DNA from: Streptomyces sp. SAJ15
GTDB taxonomy: Bacteria; Actinomycetota; Actinomycetes; Streptomycetales; Streptomycetaceae
Direction of reading: 5' to 3'
Assembly: GCF_007595705.1 (NCBI RefSeq)
Contig: NZ_NISY01000003.1
Location: forward strand, 62,001-126,000
Length of the DNA: 64,000 bases
Positions 5,378 through 38,368 of the stretch are shown here, piece by piece (position 1 is the first letter of the stretch; the number at the start of each line of letters is the position of its first letter). The translations under genes were made by a program, and so were the position numbers. Below the pieces are notes generated by a model. The model saw only the letters and a list, made by a program, of their open reading frames with translations, was not told the DNA's origin and ran no database searches.

Positions 5378-5756
5378 GGCCATCGCCCCGGCGGAGCGCC
5401 CCGCTCCGCCTCGGCACCGCCGTTTCGACCCGCAGCCCAGCCGGCGGGACCGGCGGTGCCGCCCCCGGAGCACACACCTCCACGGCCCGCGACGACCCGG
5501 CACCGCCGGACACCGCCGTCGCGGCCCCGCACCACGGCGGCGGAAGAGAGTGCACGGCCCACTCCGGCCCTGGCGGAGGCGGCAGAACTCATCCACGGCC
5601 CGCGACGACACGGCACCGCCGGACACCGCCGTCGCGGCCCCGCACCACGGCGACGGAAGAAGCCGCGCGACCCGCCCACCGGCCAGGCCCCTCGCGGCGG
5701 CGACAGCGATGTCGGCCGGGGTCCTCAGGGGTGGGCCACCCCCGGTCGACGGGCCC
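5378..5756. other. Intergenic region without a supported gene
   Basis: This lies between the convergent ATPase and DUF3180 genes. All frames here look like compositional shadows (Pro/Arg/Ala runs). It holds a 70-bp direct repeat and one copy of a dispersed ~40-bp element at its right end, both listed separately. Confidence 0.7.
5479..5661. repeat. 70-bp direct repeat (two copies, 113 bp apart)
   Basis: Copy one runs 5479-5548 and copy two 5592-5661. Both begin TCCACGGCCCGCGACGAC or nearly so and end in a GGAAGA run, with about two or three differences. The 43-bp spacer is unrelated. Neither copy codes for anything recognisable. Confidence 0.85.
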
Positions 5757-32793: not shown

Positions 32794-34251
32794 TCAGAGG
32801 GGGAAGTGGGTGCGCCCGTGCTGGATCGAGATCCACTTGGTCGTGGTGAACGCCTCGATGTACGCGTCGCCGTTGAGCCGTCCCAGCCCCGAGTGCCTCT
32901 CGCCGCCGAACGGCACGATCGGCTCGTCGTGCACCGAGCTGTCATTGATGTGGATCATGCCCGTCTCCACCCGTCGGGCGAGCCGGACACCGCGCTCGAT
33001 GTCGCCGGTGTGGACCGCGCCGCTGAGGCCGTAGTCGGTCGCGTTGGCGATCTCGACGGCCTCCTCGTCTCCGTCGAAGGGGATGAGCACGACCACCGGA
33101 CCGAACATCTCCTGGTGGAGCACGGCCGAGCCCTCGGGGACGTCGGTGAGCACGGTCGGGCCGACCAGGGTGCCGTGGGTCTCCCCCCGCACCAGGGCCG
33201 TGGCACCGTCGGCGATGGTCTGGCCGACCAGCGAGGTGAGGTTCTCGGCCTGGGTCTCGTTGATGAGCGGGCCGATCTGCGTGGTGGGGTCGTTCGGGTC
33301 GCCCACCTTCAGACCGCGCACCCGCGCCACGAACTTCTCGGTGAACTCCCGCTCCACCGCGCGGTCCACCAGGATCCGGTTGGCCGCCATGCAGATCTGG
33401 CCCTGGTGGGCGAAGCGGCTGAGGATCGCCGCGTCCACCGCGTAGTCGATGTCGGCGTCGTCCAGCACGATCAGCGCGCTGTTGCCGCCGAGCTCCAGGA
33501 CCGTGCGCTTGAAGTGCGAGGCGGCGACGGTGGCCACATGGCGGCCCACCTTGTCCGAGCCGGTGAAGGAGAACACCTTGGGCACCGGATGCTCGATGAG
33601 CGCGTCGCCGATCTCCGCGATGTCGGTGATCACCACGTTGAGCAGCCCGGGCGGCAGTCCGGCCTCCTCGAAGACCTTACCCAGCAGGCTGCCGCCGCAG
33701 ATCGGGGTGTTCTGGTGCGGCTTGAGCACCACGCCGTTGCCGAGCGCCAGCGCGGGACCGACCGACTTCAGCGAGAGCAGGAACGGGAAGTTGAAGGGGC
33801 TGACCACCCCGACCACGCCGACCGGCAGCCGGTACAGCCGGTTCTCCTTGCCGTCGATCGGCGACGGGATGATCCGCCCCTCGGGGCGCAGCGCCAGCTG
33901 GACGCACTCGCGCAGGAACTCTCTCGCCAGGCCCAGCTCGAAGGCGGCCTTGAAGTGGGTGCCGCCGACCTCGGCGATGATCGCCTCGCTCAGCTCCTTC
34001 TCGCGGTCCTCGACGATGCGCAGCGCCCGCTCGAAGACCAGCCGTCGGGTGTAGGGATTGGTGCTCCCCCACTCCCGCTGCGCCCGCTCGGCGGCCCGAT
34101 AGGCGAGGTCCACCTCCTCCACCGTGGCCACGGTGATCGAGGCGAGCTTCTCCCCGTTGTACGGGTTGAAGTCGACGATGTCCCAGGAGCCGCTCCCGGG
34201 TCGCCATTCGCCGTCGATGTACTGGTACGCCAACTCGGAGAAGTAGGACAT
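32794..34251 (-). CDS. Aldehyde dehydrogenase (vanillin/benzaldehyde dehydrogenase-like)
   Basis: A 485-residue NAD(P)-dependent dehydrogenase. The ATG at 34251 (M-S-Y-F-S-E-L-A-Y-Q-Y-I-D-G) matches the family start. Catalytic Glu253 in L-E-L-G-G-N and Cys287 in G-Q-I-C-M; the cofactor loop S-P-F-N-F-P and F-T-G-S are present. The sequence resembles aryl-aldehyde dehydrogenases such as vanillin dehydrogenase; the physiological aldehyde is not known. No decarboxylase or oxygenase gene lies beside it to confirm an aromatic pathway. Confidence 0.88.
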   Translation of the reverse strand: MSYFSELAYQYIDGEWRPGSGSWDIVDFNPYNGEKLASITVATVEEVDLAYRAAERAQREWGSTNPYTRRLVFERALRIVEDREKELSEAIIAEVGGTHFKAAFELGLAREFLRECVQLALRPEGRIIPSPIDGKENRLYRLPVGVVGVVSPFNFPFLLSLKSVGPALALGNGVVLKPHQNTPICGGSLLGKVFEEAGLPPGLLNVVITDIAEIGDALIEHPVPKVFSFTGSDKVGRHVATVAASHFKRTVLELGGNSALIVLDDADIDYAVDAAILSRFAHQGQICMAANRILVDRAVEREFTEKFVARVRGLKVGDPNDPTTQIGPLINETQAENLTSLVGQTIADGATALVRGETHGTLVGPTVLTDVPEGSAVLHQEMFGPVVVLIPFDGDEEAVEIANATDYGLSGAVHTGDIERGVRLARRVETGMIHINDSSVHDEPIVPFGGERHSGLGRLNGDAYIEAFTTTKWISIQHGRTHFPL

Positions 34252-34334
34252 GACCGTCCCTATCTGGAGGGCTGGGTGCCCTTGACACCCAAGCGTCTGT
34301 GGGGCTCCTGATGGCACGTCATGCTACATACGTC

Positions 34335-35198
34335 TTACGCGAGTTGAAGCAACCGTTCGAGCAATTCCCGGCTGTTCTCGGGTGACAGGCTGTCGGCGGC
34401 CAGACGCCCCAGAACCCTTTCGTAATGGGCGACTTCCTCGCGCTTGTCGAGATAGAGCGCGCTGGTGAGTTGCTCCAGATAGACCACGTCCGGCAGGTCC
34501 GATTCGGGGAAGCGCAACCGGGTGAACGCGCCGCTCTCCCCGGCGTGCCCGCCGAAGGCGAACGGCATCACCTGGAGCGTCACGTTCGGCTGCTCTGAGA
34601 CGTCGATGAGGTGCTCCAGCTGCCCCCGCATCACTCGCGAGCCGCCGTAGGGGCGGTGCAACGCCGCCTCGTCCAACACCACGTGGAACTCCGGCGGCTG
34701 CTCGGCGACCAGCAGCTTCTGGCGCTCCAGCCGAAGCGCCACGCGGCGCTCCACCTCGGACTCGGAGGCCGTGGGCTGACCGCTGGTGACGACCGCCTGG
34801 GCGTAGCTCTCGGTCTGCAGCAGCCCGTGCACGAACTGCACCTCGTAGCAGGCGATGTGCGAGGCGGCTCCCTCCAGCCCCACATATGTCTGAAACCACC
34901 CCGGCAGCACATCGCCGTAACTGTGCCACCACCCGGCCACATTGGCCTCGCGGGCCAGCCCGAGCAGCGCCGCCCGCTCCCCGTCGTCGCTGACGCCGTA
35001 GAGCGTCAACAGGTCCTCGATGTCCCGCGCCTTGAAGCTCACCCGCCCCAACTCCATGCGGCTGATCTTTGATTCGGAAGCACGGATCGAATAGCCGGCC
35101 GCCTCACGCGTGATGCCGCGTGCCTCGCGCAGCCGCCTGAGCTGGGAGCCCAGAAGAATGCGGCGTACCACCGATCCACTCGACTCGCTTGCGGTCAT
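34335..35198 (-). CDS. XRE-family regulator with DUF5753 (WhiJ-like)
   Basis: A 287-residue DNA-binding protein: helix-turn-helix at about 15-75 (L-R-R-L-R-E-A-R-G-I-T-R-E-A-A-G-Y) and the DUF5753 domain at about 105-280 (H-S-Y-G-D-V-L-P-G-W-F-Q-T-Y-V-G-L-E). GGAGG lies 9 bases before the ATG at 35198; the frame to 35483 is a run-on. This is the typical large member of the WhiJ/DUF397 developmental gene families of Streptomyces, with a small HATPase and a DUF397 protein encoded next to it. Confidence 0.92.
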   Translation of the reverse strand: MTASESSGSVVRRILLGSQLRRLREARGITREAAGYSIRASESKISRMELGRVSFKARDIEDLLTLYGVSDDGERAALLGLAREANVAGWWHSYGDVLPGWFQTYVGLEGAASHIACYEVQFVHGLLQTESYAQAVVTSGQPTASESEVERRVALRLERQKLLVAEQPPEFHVVLDEAALHRPYGGSRVMRGQLEHLIDVSEQPNVTLQVMPFAFGGHAGESGAFTRLRFPESDLPDVVYLEQLTSALYLDKREEVAHYERVLGRLAADSLSPENSRELLERLLQLA

Positions 35199-35503
35199 TC
35201 CCGTGACCCTCCCTCTACGGAACACACCCTTCCGGGGGCGACCCCCGGCACCCCCGGCGGCGAAGTCTGCCACCTTAGGGCTTCGCGCTGTGCACATGTC
35301 GTTACTCAGCCGCGATACGTACGCAGGACAGCGTAGGAAGAATCGCGAGCAAACCCCCGCAGGTTTCCCCAAAGCGTGCGCGTGCACGTGCATCTGCCCT
35401 TGCATCTGCCTTACGCATTCGGAACGATGGGGATCGCGCACATGCAAGCTCGTATGGGGTCCAGCCAGGATCATCACGGCCACGAAGGTGCAGGAGTGCT
35501 CGC
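35199..35503. promoter_or_regulatory. Divergent promoter region of the XRE and HATPase genes
   Basis: A 305-base gap, less GC-rich than its surroundings, with no gene. It contains the 18-bp element at 35377-35394 that recurs upstream of the DUF397 gene, and a short internal repeat GCATCTGCC at 35390 and 35403. Confidence 0.6.
35377..35394 (+). promoter_or_regulatory. 18-bp shared element upstream of the HATPase gene
   Basis: TGCGCGTGCACGTGCATC. The identical 18-mer occurs on the minus strand at 36589-36572 upstream of the DUF397 gene, in the same orientation relative to its gene. The core GTGCAC is palindromic. Candidate operator for the XRE regulator encoded next door. Confidence 0.7.
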
Positions 35504-36049
35504 ATGGGGACCAACGGCTCGGCCACGCTGGAGCCCTTGTGGCGAGGACTGCCTCCCGTCGACCCCTCCACGGCGCTGCCCGATCTCTCCGACTCCGCCT
35601 CCTGCGCGCTCCCGGCCCGCTTCGAGGCGGTCAGGGGCGCCCGCCACTTCGCCGGGGCGACGCTGGAGCGCTGGGAGTTGCCGGAGCTCTTCGACGACGT
35701 GGCGCTGGTGGTCTCCGAGCTCGTCACCAACGCCCTGCGCCACGCGCTCCCCGTCGGCCGGCCCGAGCGCGCCACCGGCGACGGCCCCCTCGGTCCCGCC
35801 GACAGCCATGAGGCGCATGTCCGTCTCCACCTGATGCGCTGGGCCTCCCGCCTGGTCTGCGCGGTGCGAGACCCCAGCGAGGAGAGCCCCACCGCCGGGG
35901 AGGCGGACTCCGGTGAGGAGTCCGGGCGGGGGCTCCACCTCGTGGAGTCCTACAGCGACGGCTGGGGCTGGCACCCGCTGGCGGGCTCCCTGCACGGCAA
36001 GATCGTGTGGGCCCTCTTCCTGCTGCCGCGCCAGACCGGACGCGGCTGA
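35504..36049 (+). CDS. Small HATPase (anti-sigma-factor-like serine kinase fold)
   Basis: A 181-residue protein with a GHKL ATPase fold of the RsbW/SpoIIAB-like group. N-box near 66-80 (V-S-E-L-V-T-N-A-L-R-H-A), a D-P segment near 125, and a G-rich lid near 140-150 (E-S-G-R-G-L-H-L-V-E-S-Y). AGGAG is 8 bases before the ATG. Such proteins are standard partners of WhiJ-like XRE/DUF397 pairs; most have no known sigma partner. Confidence 0.88.
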   Translation: MGTNGSATLEPLWRGLPPVDPSTALPDLSDSASCALPARFEAVRGARHFAGATLERWELPELFDDVALVVSELVTNALRHALPVGRPERATGDGPLGPADSHEAHVRLHLMRWASRLVCAVRDPSEESPTAGEADSGEESGRGLHLVESYSDGWGWHPLAGSLHGKIVWALFLLPRQTGRG

Positions 36050-36249
36050 CTCCGCCGCGTCGGCGCCACCCGCCACGCCGCGTCCGCGTCACCCACCGCC
36101 ACATCCGCACCGCTCCCGCCGCATCGCCGTACCGCGGCCGCACGGCGGCCGTACGGCGGTCCGCCGGGAACACCGGTACAGCAGTCACGGGAGCCGTCGT
36201 ACGGCAGCCGTGGGGAACACCGTACGACGCCTCGTACCGCCGTCCGCCC

Positions 36250-36495
36250 TCAGTCCCCCACCAGGTGGTCGAACTCCCCGTCCTTGGCGCCGAGCAGCAG
36301 CGCCGCGATCTCCGCCGGGGTGTAGATCAGGGCCGGGCCGTCGGGGAAGCGGGAATTGCGCATGGCGACCTCCCCACCGGGGAGTTTGGCGAATTCGACG
36401 CAGGAACCCTGGGAGTTGCTGTGCCGGCTCTTCTGCCAGACGACCCCATGGAGATCCGCCGCCGCCATGCCGTTGAAGGGGTGGTCGTCGCGCAC
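36250..36495 (-). CDS. DUF397 protein
   Basis: An 81-residue DUF397 protein (V-V-W-Q-K-S-R-H-S-N-S-Q-G-S-C-V-E-F-A, then V-A-M-R-N-S-R-F-P-D-G-P-A-L-I-Y-T-P-A-E). The GTG at 36495 is preferred because GGAG lies 6 bases upstream; a TTG at 36528 and an ATG at 36468 are alternatives. DUF397 proteins act with cognate DUF5753 XRE regulators in development and antibiotic control. It is convergent with the HATPase gene, and its upstream region carries the shared 18-bp element and a TATGAT box (36543-36538). Confidence 0.88.
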   Translation of the reverse strand: MRDDHPFNGMAAADLHGVVWQKSRHSNSQGSCVEFAKLPGGEVAMRNSRFPDGPALIYTPAEIAALLLGAKDGEFDHLVGD

Positions 36496-36571
36496 AGGGC
36501 TCTCCGGATGTATCGGTGCAGCTACCAACTGCCCCGGATCATAGCCTCGTTCACGTGCCGACGCGCGAGCG

Positions 36572-36589
36572 GATGCACGTGCACGCGCA
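36572..36589 (-). promoter_or_regulatory. 18-bp shared element upstream of the DUF397 gene
   Basis: On the minus strand this reads exactly as 35377-35394 on the plus strand. It ends 28 bases before a TATGAT -10-like box and about 77 bases before the GTG start. Confidence 0.7.
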
Positions 36590-36601
36590 GTGGCGGAATG
36601 A

Positions 36602-36850
36602 TCACCGCGAGCCGTAGGGCAGCAAAGCCATCTCCCGGGCGTTCTTGATGGCCCGAGCGATCTGCCGCTGCTGCCGCGCGGTCACGCGTGTGACCCGCCG
36701 ACTGCGGATCTTCCCCCGGTCGGATATGAACTTCCGCAGCAGATCCGTGTCCTTGTAGTCGATATAGGTGACGCCGGCGGCGTCCAACGGGTTCGGCCGC
36801 GGCTTCAGATTTTTGCGATTCGCTCCGCGCTGCGCACCGTTTCTTGGCAT
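36602..36850 (-). CDS. rpsR: 30S ribosomal protein S18, zinc-independent paralogue
   Basis: An 82-residue S18 ([18 protein letters not shown], then [18 protein letters not shown]). It has no cysteines at all, unlike the zinc-binding S18 of the rpsF operon. The ATG at 36850 has AAAGGA about 8 bases upstream. It is last of the minus-strand unit rpmG, rpmE, cobW-like, rpsR under the Zur-like box at 38556-38575. Confidence 0.94.
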
Positions 36851-36935
36851 GTGCGAGTCCTTTCTCTCAGTTTTTACGGGACATAAGGGGGCCGCCCGGG
36901 AATTCGCGGCCCCTCGGGGCATTCAGGAGAGCGCC

Positions 36936-38105
36936 TCAGGAGACCGGGTCGAGGAGCTGGTCGAAGGCGGCGGAGAGGTCGCGCCACGCCTCGGGGCCCG
37001 TCGCGTACTCCTCGTCCGTCAGCAGACAGGACTCCAGCAGCGACGCCAGCGCCTCGGCGTCCAGGCCGGGGGAGGTGAAGGTGAGGTGCTGGGCACGATC
37101 GCCGTGCTCGGCGTCCCAGTCCAGGGCCGCGGCCACCCGACGGGTCGGCGGCACCATCTCCCACGCCGCCTCCGGCAGCGCGGCCAGCCACGGCCCCACG
37201 CTCTCCACACACAGCGCGCCGCCCGCCGCGTCCCAGGAGAGCAGCGTGTCCGGGCGGTCGGCGAGCCAGAAGCGGCCCCGGCTGCGCGCCGCCGCGCAGC
37301 TGAGGTCCTCCAGCGCCGCGTACAGCCGACCGGGGTGGAAGGGGCGGACGCGGTGCCAGACGAAGGTGGTGACCCCGTCGGCGTCGGCGGCCTGCGGCAG
37401 CAGCGCGCAGGCCGGGTGCTGCCGGGCCGCGGCCGCCTCCACGTCGAATCCGGCGAGCGCCTCCCGGGCGAGGTCCGGGGAGTCCAGGGCCACCTGACGG
37501 GCCGTGGGGTGCAGCTGCGCGAGGAGCGCGCGGTCCGCGGCGTCCGCGGCCTCGTCGCCGTCGACGACGGCCAGCGCCGACGGGTACTCCAACTGGCGGG
37601 CGAAGGTGTCGGCGACCGTACGCTGATCGGTGGCCGCGGCCGCCAGCCCCACCTCGGCCAGGTCGTCCCCGCAGCCGAGGAACGGCAGCAGCAGCGCCGG
37701 GTCCACCGCGGTGAGCACGCCGCTCAGCCGCAGCCGCTCACCGGCGCAGGCTGCCACCACCTCGGCCATCGCCTGCGGCTCCACCGAGTCCCACAGCTCG
37801 ACCACGGCCAGCCCGCTCGACCCGCCCTCGGCGAGCCGCTCCAGCTCGGGCATCAGGTCCTCGCGCAGCGCGCAGCAGGCGCAGTCGTTGACCAGCGGGA
37901 CCTCGCCCTCGTCCAGCGTGCCCCGGCGGTCCCGGACGGTCCGACGCACCGTGCCGTCCGCCGCCGAGGCCAGGTCGTGGTGGAGCGCGACGGCGCCGGG
38001 CACGGCGCCCAGCAGTCGGTCGACGACCGCCTGTCGGGCGTCGGTGTGCAGCCCGGCCACCAGCACCACGGGCAGGGCGTCGGGCAGCCGCCGCGGGCCG
38101 CTCAT
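36936..38105 (-). CDS. CobW/COG0523-type protein with degenerate P-loop
   Basis: A 389-residue protein of the COG0523 metallochaperone GTPase family. The ATG at 38105 overlaps the rpmE stop (ATGA). The metal-binding C-x-C-C motif is present ([12 protein letters not shown], about residue 74) and the C-terminal CobW domain (F-H-P-G-R-L-Y) is intact. Odd: where the second CobW in this window has G-F-L-G-A-G-K-T-T, this one has A-G-L-H-T-D-A-R-Q, so the Walker A lysine is missing and GTP hydrolysis is doubtful. Expected role: zinc delivery during starvation, perhaps as partner of the active paralogue. Confidence 0.88.
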
Positions 38106-38368
38106 CGGGCGGCCCCGCGGCTCCCGCGCCTCCCGTACCGGCGCTCGAACCGCTCGACGCGGCCGGCGGTGTCCAGCACCCGGGCGGTGCCGGTGTAGAA
38201 GGGGTGGCTCGCCGAGGAGATCTCGACATCGATGACCGGGTAGGTGTTGCCGTCCTCCCATTCGATCGTCTTGTCGCTGGTGGCGGTCGAGCGGGTGAGG
38301 AAGGCGAAGTCGGCGGCCCGGTCACGGAAGACGACGGGCCCGTACGGAGGGTGGATGCCGGGCTTCAT
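38102..38368 (-). CDS. rpmE: 50S ribosomal protein L31 type B
   Basis: An 88-residue L31 of the zinc-free type B class ([16 protein letters not shown], then [10 protein letters not shown]). No C-x-x-C pair. Released during zinc limitation, it replaces the zinc form of L31. It is translationally coupled to the cobW-like gene and lies just downstream of rpmG. Confidence 0.95.

Follow-up and report, generated by a model that had tools for sequence, protein, structure and literature searches.

What does an identical 18-base sequence, repeated in inverted orientation ahead of two genes of one small regulatory cluster, do there? The 64,000-nucleotide stretch analysed here (the window; Streptomyces sp. 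SAJ15, contig NZ_NISY01000003.1, positions 62,001 to 126,000) carries a cluster with genes for a WhiJ-like XRE/DUF5753 regulator, a HATPase protein and a DUF397 protein. A first-pass annotation, made from the letters of the window, had noticed the 18-mer TGCGCGTGCACGTGCATC ahead of the HATPase and DUF397 genes and had proposed it as a binding site of the XRE regulator. Both copies are where it placed them, each upstream of and directed at one of these genes, and the window holds no further match at up to 3 mismatches. It had also put the regulator gene between the copies; in fact that gene lies to the left of copy 1, and it is the HATPase and DUF397 genes that stand between them. We consider that the 18-mers are quite probably the outer ends of two operator arrays of the cluster's own XRE/DUF5753 protein, whichever the direction of control. 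Comparison of sequences across genomes supports the candidate site: it is unique to the cluster, accompanies the XRE gene within the genus and in other families, and covaries with the recognition helix in one clade. The features discussed below are the following (window positions).

35377..35394, plus strand: 18-mer copy 1, TGCGCGTGCACGTGCATC, an exact match upstream of the HATPase gene
36572..36589, minus strand: 18-mer copy 2, TGCGCGTGCACGTGCATC, an exact match upstream of the DUF397 gene
35382..35418, plus strand: putative operator array A, with the core GTGCACGTGCATC at 35382-35394 and units at 35395-35406 and 35407-35418 (from column conservation)
36548..36584, minus strand: putative operator array B, with the core at 36584-36572 and units at 36571-36560 and 36559-36548 (from the window sequence and orthologue alignment)
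36538..36543, minus strand: -10 element of the DUF397 promoter, TATGAT (from the window sequence; core offset 39-43 in 83 of 108 loci)
35423..35428, plus strand: proposed -10 element of the HATPase promoter, AACGAT, at core offset 41, as is TATGAT in array B
34335..35198, minus strand: gene of the XRE/DUF5753 WhiJ-like regulator (287 aa; Pfam HTH_31 5.4e-16, DUF5753 1.3e-62)
35504..36049, plus strand: HATPase gene, encoding an AbaA-like or RsbW-like HATPase_c_2 protein (181 aa; Pfam HATPase_c_2 2.8e-12)
about 36250..36495, minus strand: DUF397 gene, encoding a BldB-like protein (Pfam DUF397 6.4e-19)

The 18-mers and the conserved unit

In the whole genome of 8,098,834 bases, the exact 18-mer occurred twice, both times in the cluster, the next best match having 2 mismatches; the exact 13-base core GTGCACGTGCATC was likewise found at 2 places in the 8.1 Mb, both at the cluster. 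When 3 mismatches were allowed, the 18-mer gave 20 matches genome-wide versus 26 for the reversed control, and the core at 1 mismatch gave 11 versus 14. Because these counts do not exceed the reversed control, relaxed matches in the strain's own genome carry no signal. A 24-base version of the operator, searched genome-wide at up to 3 mismatches, returned the cluster sites only (1 match for its reversed control) and no third full site, on which ground a wide regulon was rejected. The genome-wide check brought up no multitude of 18-mer copies unrelated to such clusters.

The annotation had further held that exact 18-mers are not expected by chance, which is too strong, since the window contains other exact 18-mer repeats: 135 direct matches, and 9 inverted ones in six places; the cluster pair counts among the inverted matches, and some of these are short hairpins. 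Two or more matches at up to 3 mismatches were obtained in 2 of 100 shuffles. Judged on such counts, the identity of the 18-mers is by itself weak evidence in a GC-rich window, and it is their conservation and position that exceed chance expectation. Among the direct repeats, exact ones were seen at 2506-2570 and 5479-5640, with spacings of 21 and 113 bases.

The 18-bp element is thus real and unique, but it is not the unit that is conserved, as its first bases differ between species. From the alignments, the unit that is kept consists of GTGCACGTGCATC and the 12-bp units after it. The sequence of array A is GTGCACGTGCATC-TGCCCTTGCATC-TGCnnnnCGCAT, then TcGGAACcATGG. Over 101 distinct sequences, column conservation was 1.00 at offsets 1-11 and 13-24, 0.96 at offset 0 and 0.92 at offset 12; the flanks lay mostly below 0.9, with isolated exceptions. 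The main class of array B (67 distinct sequences) reads GTGCACGTGCATC-tGCtCATGCAt-nGCAnaTGAAC, then TATGATCC. Direct repeats, a trait expected of a WhiJ-like operator, are present in both arrays in 12-bp form, and array A lies in the gap beside the regulator gene.

The distance between array B and its promoter follows the same unit. Besides the 83 loci with TATGAT at offset 39-43 from the core, the offset was 53-55 in 13 and 77 in 10, with no match in 2. The steps of 12 and 36 are multiples of the unit, about six units being present at ten loci of the L021-L031 group, and on this alignment the array mostly lengthens by whole 12-bp units in step with the -10 box. At array A, offsets 41-46 take the form AACcAT, with A42 and T46 at 1.00, and we propose here a weak HATPase -10 at the same core distance as that of array B. 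No TTGACA-like -35 was seen by inspection in array B.

Conservation across genomes and the recognition helix

Within the genus, the 18-mer was found at up to 1 mismatch in 143 of 295 genomes, compared with 13 for the reversed control (counted by eye). The genus loci comprised 80 found by the XRE protein, 30 fetched by the 18-mer (L101-L130) and the window. XRE and HATPase matches were present at all 30 of the 18-mer loci opened. Every one of the 111 gaps between the XRE and HATPase genes contained the core, in 99 cases exactly and in 12 with one mismatch. It was likewise present in all 108 regions upstream of DUF397 (92 perfect copies, 16 with a single mismatch), a DUF397 match being absent from three of the 111 loci. 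These 111 and 108 loci are not all independent, for they include near copies, possibly the same species twice, and correspond to 101 and 98 distinct stretches. At the 80 XRE-selected loci the exact core occurred in 79, versus a mean of 0.03 for permuted cores.

Outside the genus, 28 loci (L183-L210; 8 plus 20) were chosen in other families of the class, the XRE protein match being the only criterion. With sequence inside the three gene matches set aside and at most 1 mismatch allowed, TGCACGTGCAT was present in 26 of these 28, spanning families f8, f17, f18, f19 and f37; L184 and L208 had none. We restricted the outside-genus count to this sample because, of 20 loci added later, about five (L232, L233, L236, L241, L244) had been chosen for the known motif. 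In the 48 loci together, TGCACGTGCAT occurred in 41, versus 3.2 in resampled sequence; the reversed core gave 5 and permuted cores 1.9 on average. A frequent form outside the genus, judged by eye, is TGCACGTGCATYtGnnCCTTGCATCTGCA, which has one base more of spacing. The corresponding 13-spaced pattern, which does not detect the 12-base form found in the window and in most Streptomyces, occurred in 27 of 246 genomes of the class, all of them within the 75 whose XRE match reaches E 1e-60 or better; 19 of its 28 matches lay within about 1 kb of an XRE match and 6 beside XRE or HATPase matches. Where the standard core is missing, in L208, L235, L237 and L238, related TGCA-N2-TGCA boxes were observed upstream of DUF397.

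The recognition helix of the XRE protein corresponds to residues 42-49 in the predicted structure (mean pLDDT 84), and its sequence ESKISR[ML]ELGR was found at 110 of 110 genus loci. Outside the genus, among loci with the site, a TTAC second box accompanied 8 of 8 SHAKIS-type helices and 1 of 33 of the SESKIS/SESKMS type, the lone case among the latter (L193) being a separate weak match. The eight SHAKIS/TTAC loci also have Q, not R, at residue 52; in this one clade the second box changes from TTGCA to TTACA along with the helix. The Fisher value of the association, 9e-8, treats related sequences as independent and is not to be read as a probability. Two genomes, G408 (L231, L244) and G510 (L205, L236), carry one gene with a SHAKIS helix and one with SESKIS, each accompanied by the matching box type, and in G362, G388, G477 and G501 a SHAKIS gene with TTAC coexists with a further XRE gene of SASKIS type beside a GTGCA box. 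That the box types differ between XRE genes within a single genome argues against a mere lineage effect. The SASKIS type (L251, L252, L253, L256) is about 50 per cent identical; HATPase and DUF397 genes adjoin it, and its operator reads TGCACGTGCATTCG-GTGCA.

The other DUF397 regions of the strain's own genome, 15 in all when that of the window is excepted, gave a different picture. The array was present in 0 of the 15. A lone core match with one mismatch was found in three, inside the XRE match (L212), inside the HATPase match (L220) and about 500 bases upstream of XRE (L216), with no second box. The other XRE proteins of this genome have different helices and no such array, and in four paralogue clusters the XRE-HATPase gaps, scanned in a simple way for 12-bp repeats, yielded nothing convincing. 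One of these regions, L221, whose XRE protein is 45 per cent identical, has in its HATPase-XRE gap the sequence CGCCCTCAAC, which fits the WhiJ9 repeat CGXXCTCAAC, and a similar CTTCAACT nearby; a CTGCA-TTT-CAGA-like palindrome, seen by eye, is common to L221 and L222.

Direction of control and rival explanations

In the mechanism that we propose, each array would begin with the palindrome TGCACGTGCA and continue as TGCA-type boxes, in steps of about 12 bp, to the -10 region of a promoter, that of array A driving the HATPase gene and that of array B the DUF397 gene. Dimers of the XRE protein would occupy the palindromic TGCA boxes of each array. If the protein does bind there, it rather probably activates both promoters; activation is favoured because the array stands where a -35 element would be, its distance from the -10 being fixed. 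The HATPase product is regarded as anti-sigma-like on account of its Pfam family and of the literature on AbaA-like proteins. The DUF397 product would in turn restrain the XRE protein, so that the switch limits itself; the analogy is with WhiJ9, on which activation in a bldB mutant depends. At the whiJ locus, loss of the neighbour SCO4542 gives bald colonies, suppressed by co-deletion of whiJ (PMC4255298).

Repression through the same operator and protein is less likely but has to be taken seriously: with the arrays bound, RNA polymerase would be kept from the -35 region until a ligand or the DUF397 protein relieved the block. Array B ends a few bases from TATGAT, and an operator beside the -10 could equally serve to repress. 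The whiJ locus has been described as repressing development (PMC4255298), and WhiJ9 of S. venezuelae appears to repress its own gene about twofold; the same WhiJ9, however, is required for the activation of iosA (both according to PMC10294661), and array B lacks the recognisable TTGACA at the -35 that a repressed promoter should keep. That the element is bound by a regulator encoded elsewhere, such as another WhiJ paralogue or a global regulator, is improbable. A site need not adjoin the gene of its regulator, and the genome has further XRE paralogues, but its only two full sites are both at this cluster and are kept with the XRE gene over families, and the covariation with the XRE helix, together with the box differences between XRE genes that share a genome, speaks for the local protein.

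Still less probable is that the conserved block is the promoter element of an alternative sigma factor. Offsets 39-43 of array A hold a conserved GGAAC, and there are reports of sigma-E at SCO3423 and SCO3424. Against this, array B has a sigma-70-like TATGAT with no GGAAC there, the most conserved part lies upstream of GGAAC and repeats in 12-bp units, and the printed sco3424 sigma-E sequence has no match upstream of DUF397: in the form given in PMC6767563, it was searched there in 110 loci and the window at up to 5 mismatches and gave none, more diverged sites escaping such a search. As to chance identity in GC-rich DNA, the further exact 18-mer repeats of the window speak for it and the 18-mer alone would not exclude it; it is contradicted by the conservation results, was rejected on the cross-genome comparison and retains a negligible probability.

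Several observations nevertheless weigh against two operator arrays bound by the cluster's XRE protein. Three of the 28 matches to the 13-spaced pattern (L248, L249, L255) lie beside no cluster gene, and the reversed control of this pattern occurred in 5 genomes, 3 of them among the 75, which indicates that genome size and GC content favour that group. The fetched stretches of L184 and L245 contain neither the core nor a TGCA-N0-3-TGCA box, and AACGAT is weak as a -10. For the helix code, the eight SHAKIS/TTAC loci form one clade, so that the tree needs a single change, one evolutionary event; the string KTGC is also present in the same stretch at 4 of these 8 loci; and the SHAKIS loci L208, L234 and L235, from another family and with R at residue 52, have TGCA-type boxes or none instead of TTAC. 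Because of these three loci, the code is not simply ES versus HA. Finally, the single WhiJ9 site lies 113 bp upstream of the start of its target, as given in PMC10294661, whereas the two arrays here are close to -10 boxes.

Cluster genes and comparison with known systems

The gene order is XRE (minus), array A, HATPase (plus), DUF397 (minus), array B, a ribosomal S18 gene and a CobW-like gene; DUF397 is convergent with HATPase and has array B upstream of it. The XRE protein carries an N-terminal XRE-type helix-turn-helix and a DUF5753 domain, both over the Pfam cut-off and in agreement with the predicted structure, as a WhiJ-like protein does, and its gene adjoins the HATPase_c and DUF397 genes, as in WhiJ/AbaA/BldB-type clusters. 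DUF397 likely starts at the GTG at 36495, after a GGAGAG site, and not at the TTG at 36528; orthologue matches mostly begin at residues 9-18 of the longer frame. No Rfam match was found within 34000-37500, and a 71-base stretch of the locus had no match when compared with plasmids. A TTA codon was observed in the HATPase gene of 86 of 111 loci, which fits bldA control; the copy in the window is without TTA. Beside the cluster stand the S18 gene (36602-36850) and then the CobW-like gene (36936-38261), a pair that we take to resemble the zinc-regulated ribosomal cluster of S. coelicolor.

From the gene order, with S18 and CobW as neighbours, and from the TTA trait, we presume that the locus is probably the SCO3421/SCO3423/SCO3424 cluster of S. 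coelicolor; in this comparison, the XRE gene is widely kept here and the HATPase gene often has its TTA. Identity with the SCO4677 cluster was dropped, SCO4677 and SCO4676 being on one strand and co-transcribed. A type II toxin-antitoxin system of the XRE-DUF397 kind would call for a toxic DUF397 protein; 14 S. coelicolor pairs are reported to have given no clear toxicity (PMC10364602).

The N-terminal domain model of the regulator matches C.Esp1396I, C.AhdI and the phage P22 c2 repressor, small proteins with an XRE-type helix-turn-helix, of which C.Esp1396I is, by the title of its structure entry, a tetramer on a 35-base operator; these proteins are without DUF5753 and belong to restriction-modification or phage contexts. 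A sequence search of solved structures returned none for the XRE or the DUF397 protein. For the DUF5753 model (residues about 88-286), a resemblance was observed to domains of the phospholipase D type, with Nuc (1byr; Z 9.4, 136 residues), PLD3 and Zucchini, and to the regulator TrmBL2 (Z 9.0); Foldseek E-values were all above 0.001, and models without a match often reach Z of 7-8. The HxKx4D motif was found in 0 of 29 aligned proteins. On this modelling, DUF5753 may be a TrmB-like sensor domain; no literature linking WhiJ with phospholipase D was found.

The closest known system is that of WhiJ9, whose operator is the only one of a WhiJ-like protein that we found in the literature searched. 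No account of the present operator was found there, subscription papers being mostly outside the search; a search with the letters of the motif listed 18 papers, none of which, by title and abstract start, concerns actinomycetes, and a 2013 review states that information on WhiJ targets was lacking. WhiJ9 binds three direct repeats, is needed for iosA activation in a bldB mutant and probably represses itself. Like the present locus, iosA-whiJ9 combines a WhiJ-like XRE protein, a BldB-like DUF397 gene in the cluster and several direct repeats in a divergent gap. Unlike it, its repeats CGXXCTCAAC, as given in PMC10294661, do not resemble TGCACGTGCATC, nor do the sequences of arrays A and B fit them by eye, and its target is iosA, not an AbaA-like HATPase gene and a DUF397 gene.

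The kind of system is known; the sequence and layout of the operator appear to be new. It is possible, though we hold it at somewhat less than an even chance, that a self-contained WhiJ-like/AbaA-like/BldB-like switch has kept its own two-promoter operator across several actinomycete families, with a helix code (residues 42, 43 and 52 versus the second box) and a phospholipase D-fold DUF5753 sensor as in TrmB-type regulators. What we propose is a defined operator for a very widely kept WhiJ paralogue, together with two target promoters, a tentative specificity code and exact probe sequences. With these, the regulatory connections of the WhiJ/AbaA/BldB family, a family with effects on sporulation and antibiotic production, can be tested directly.
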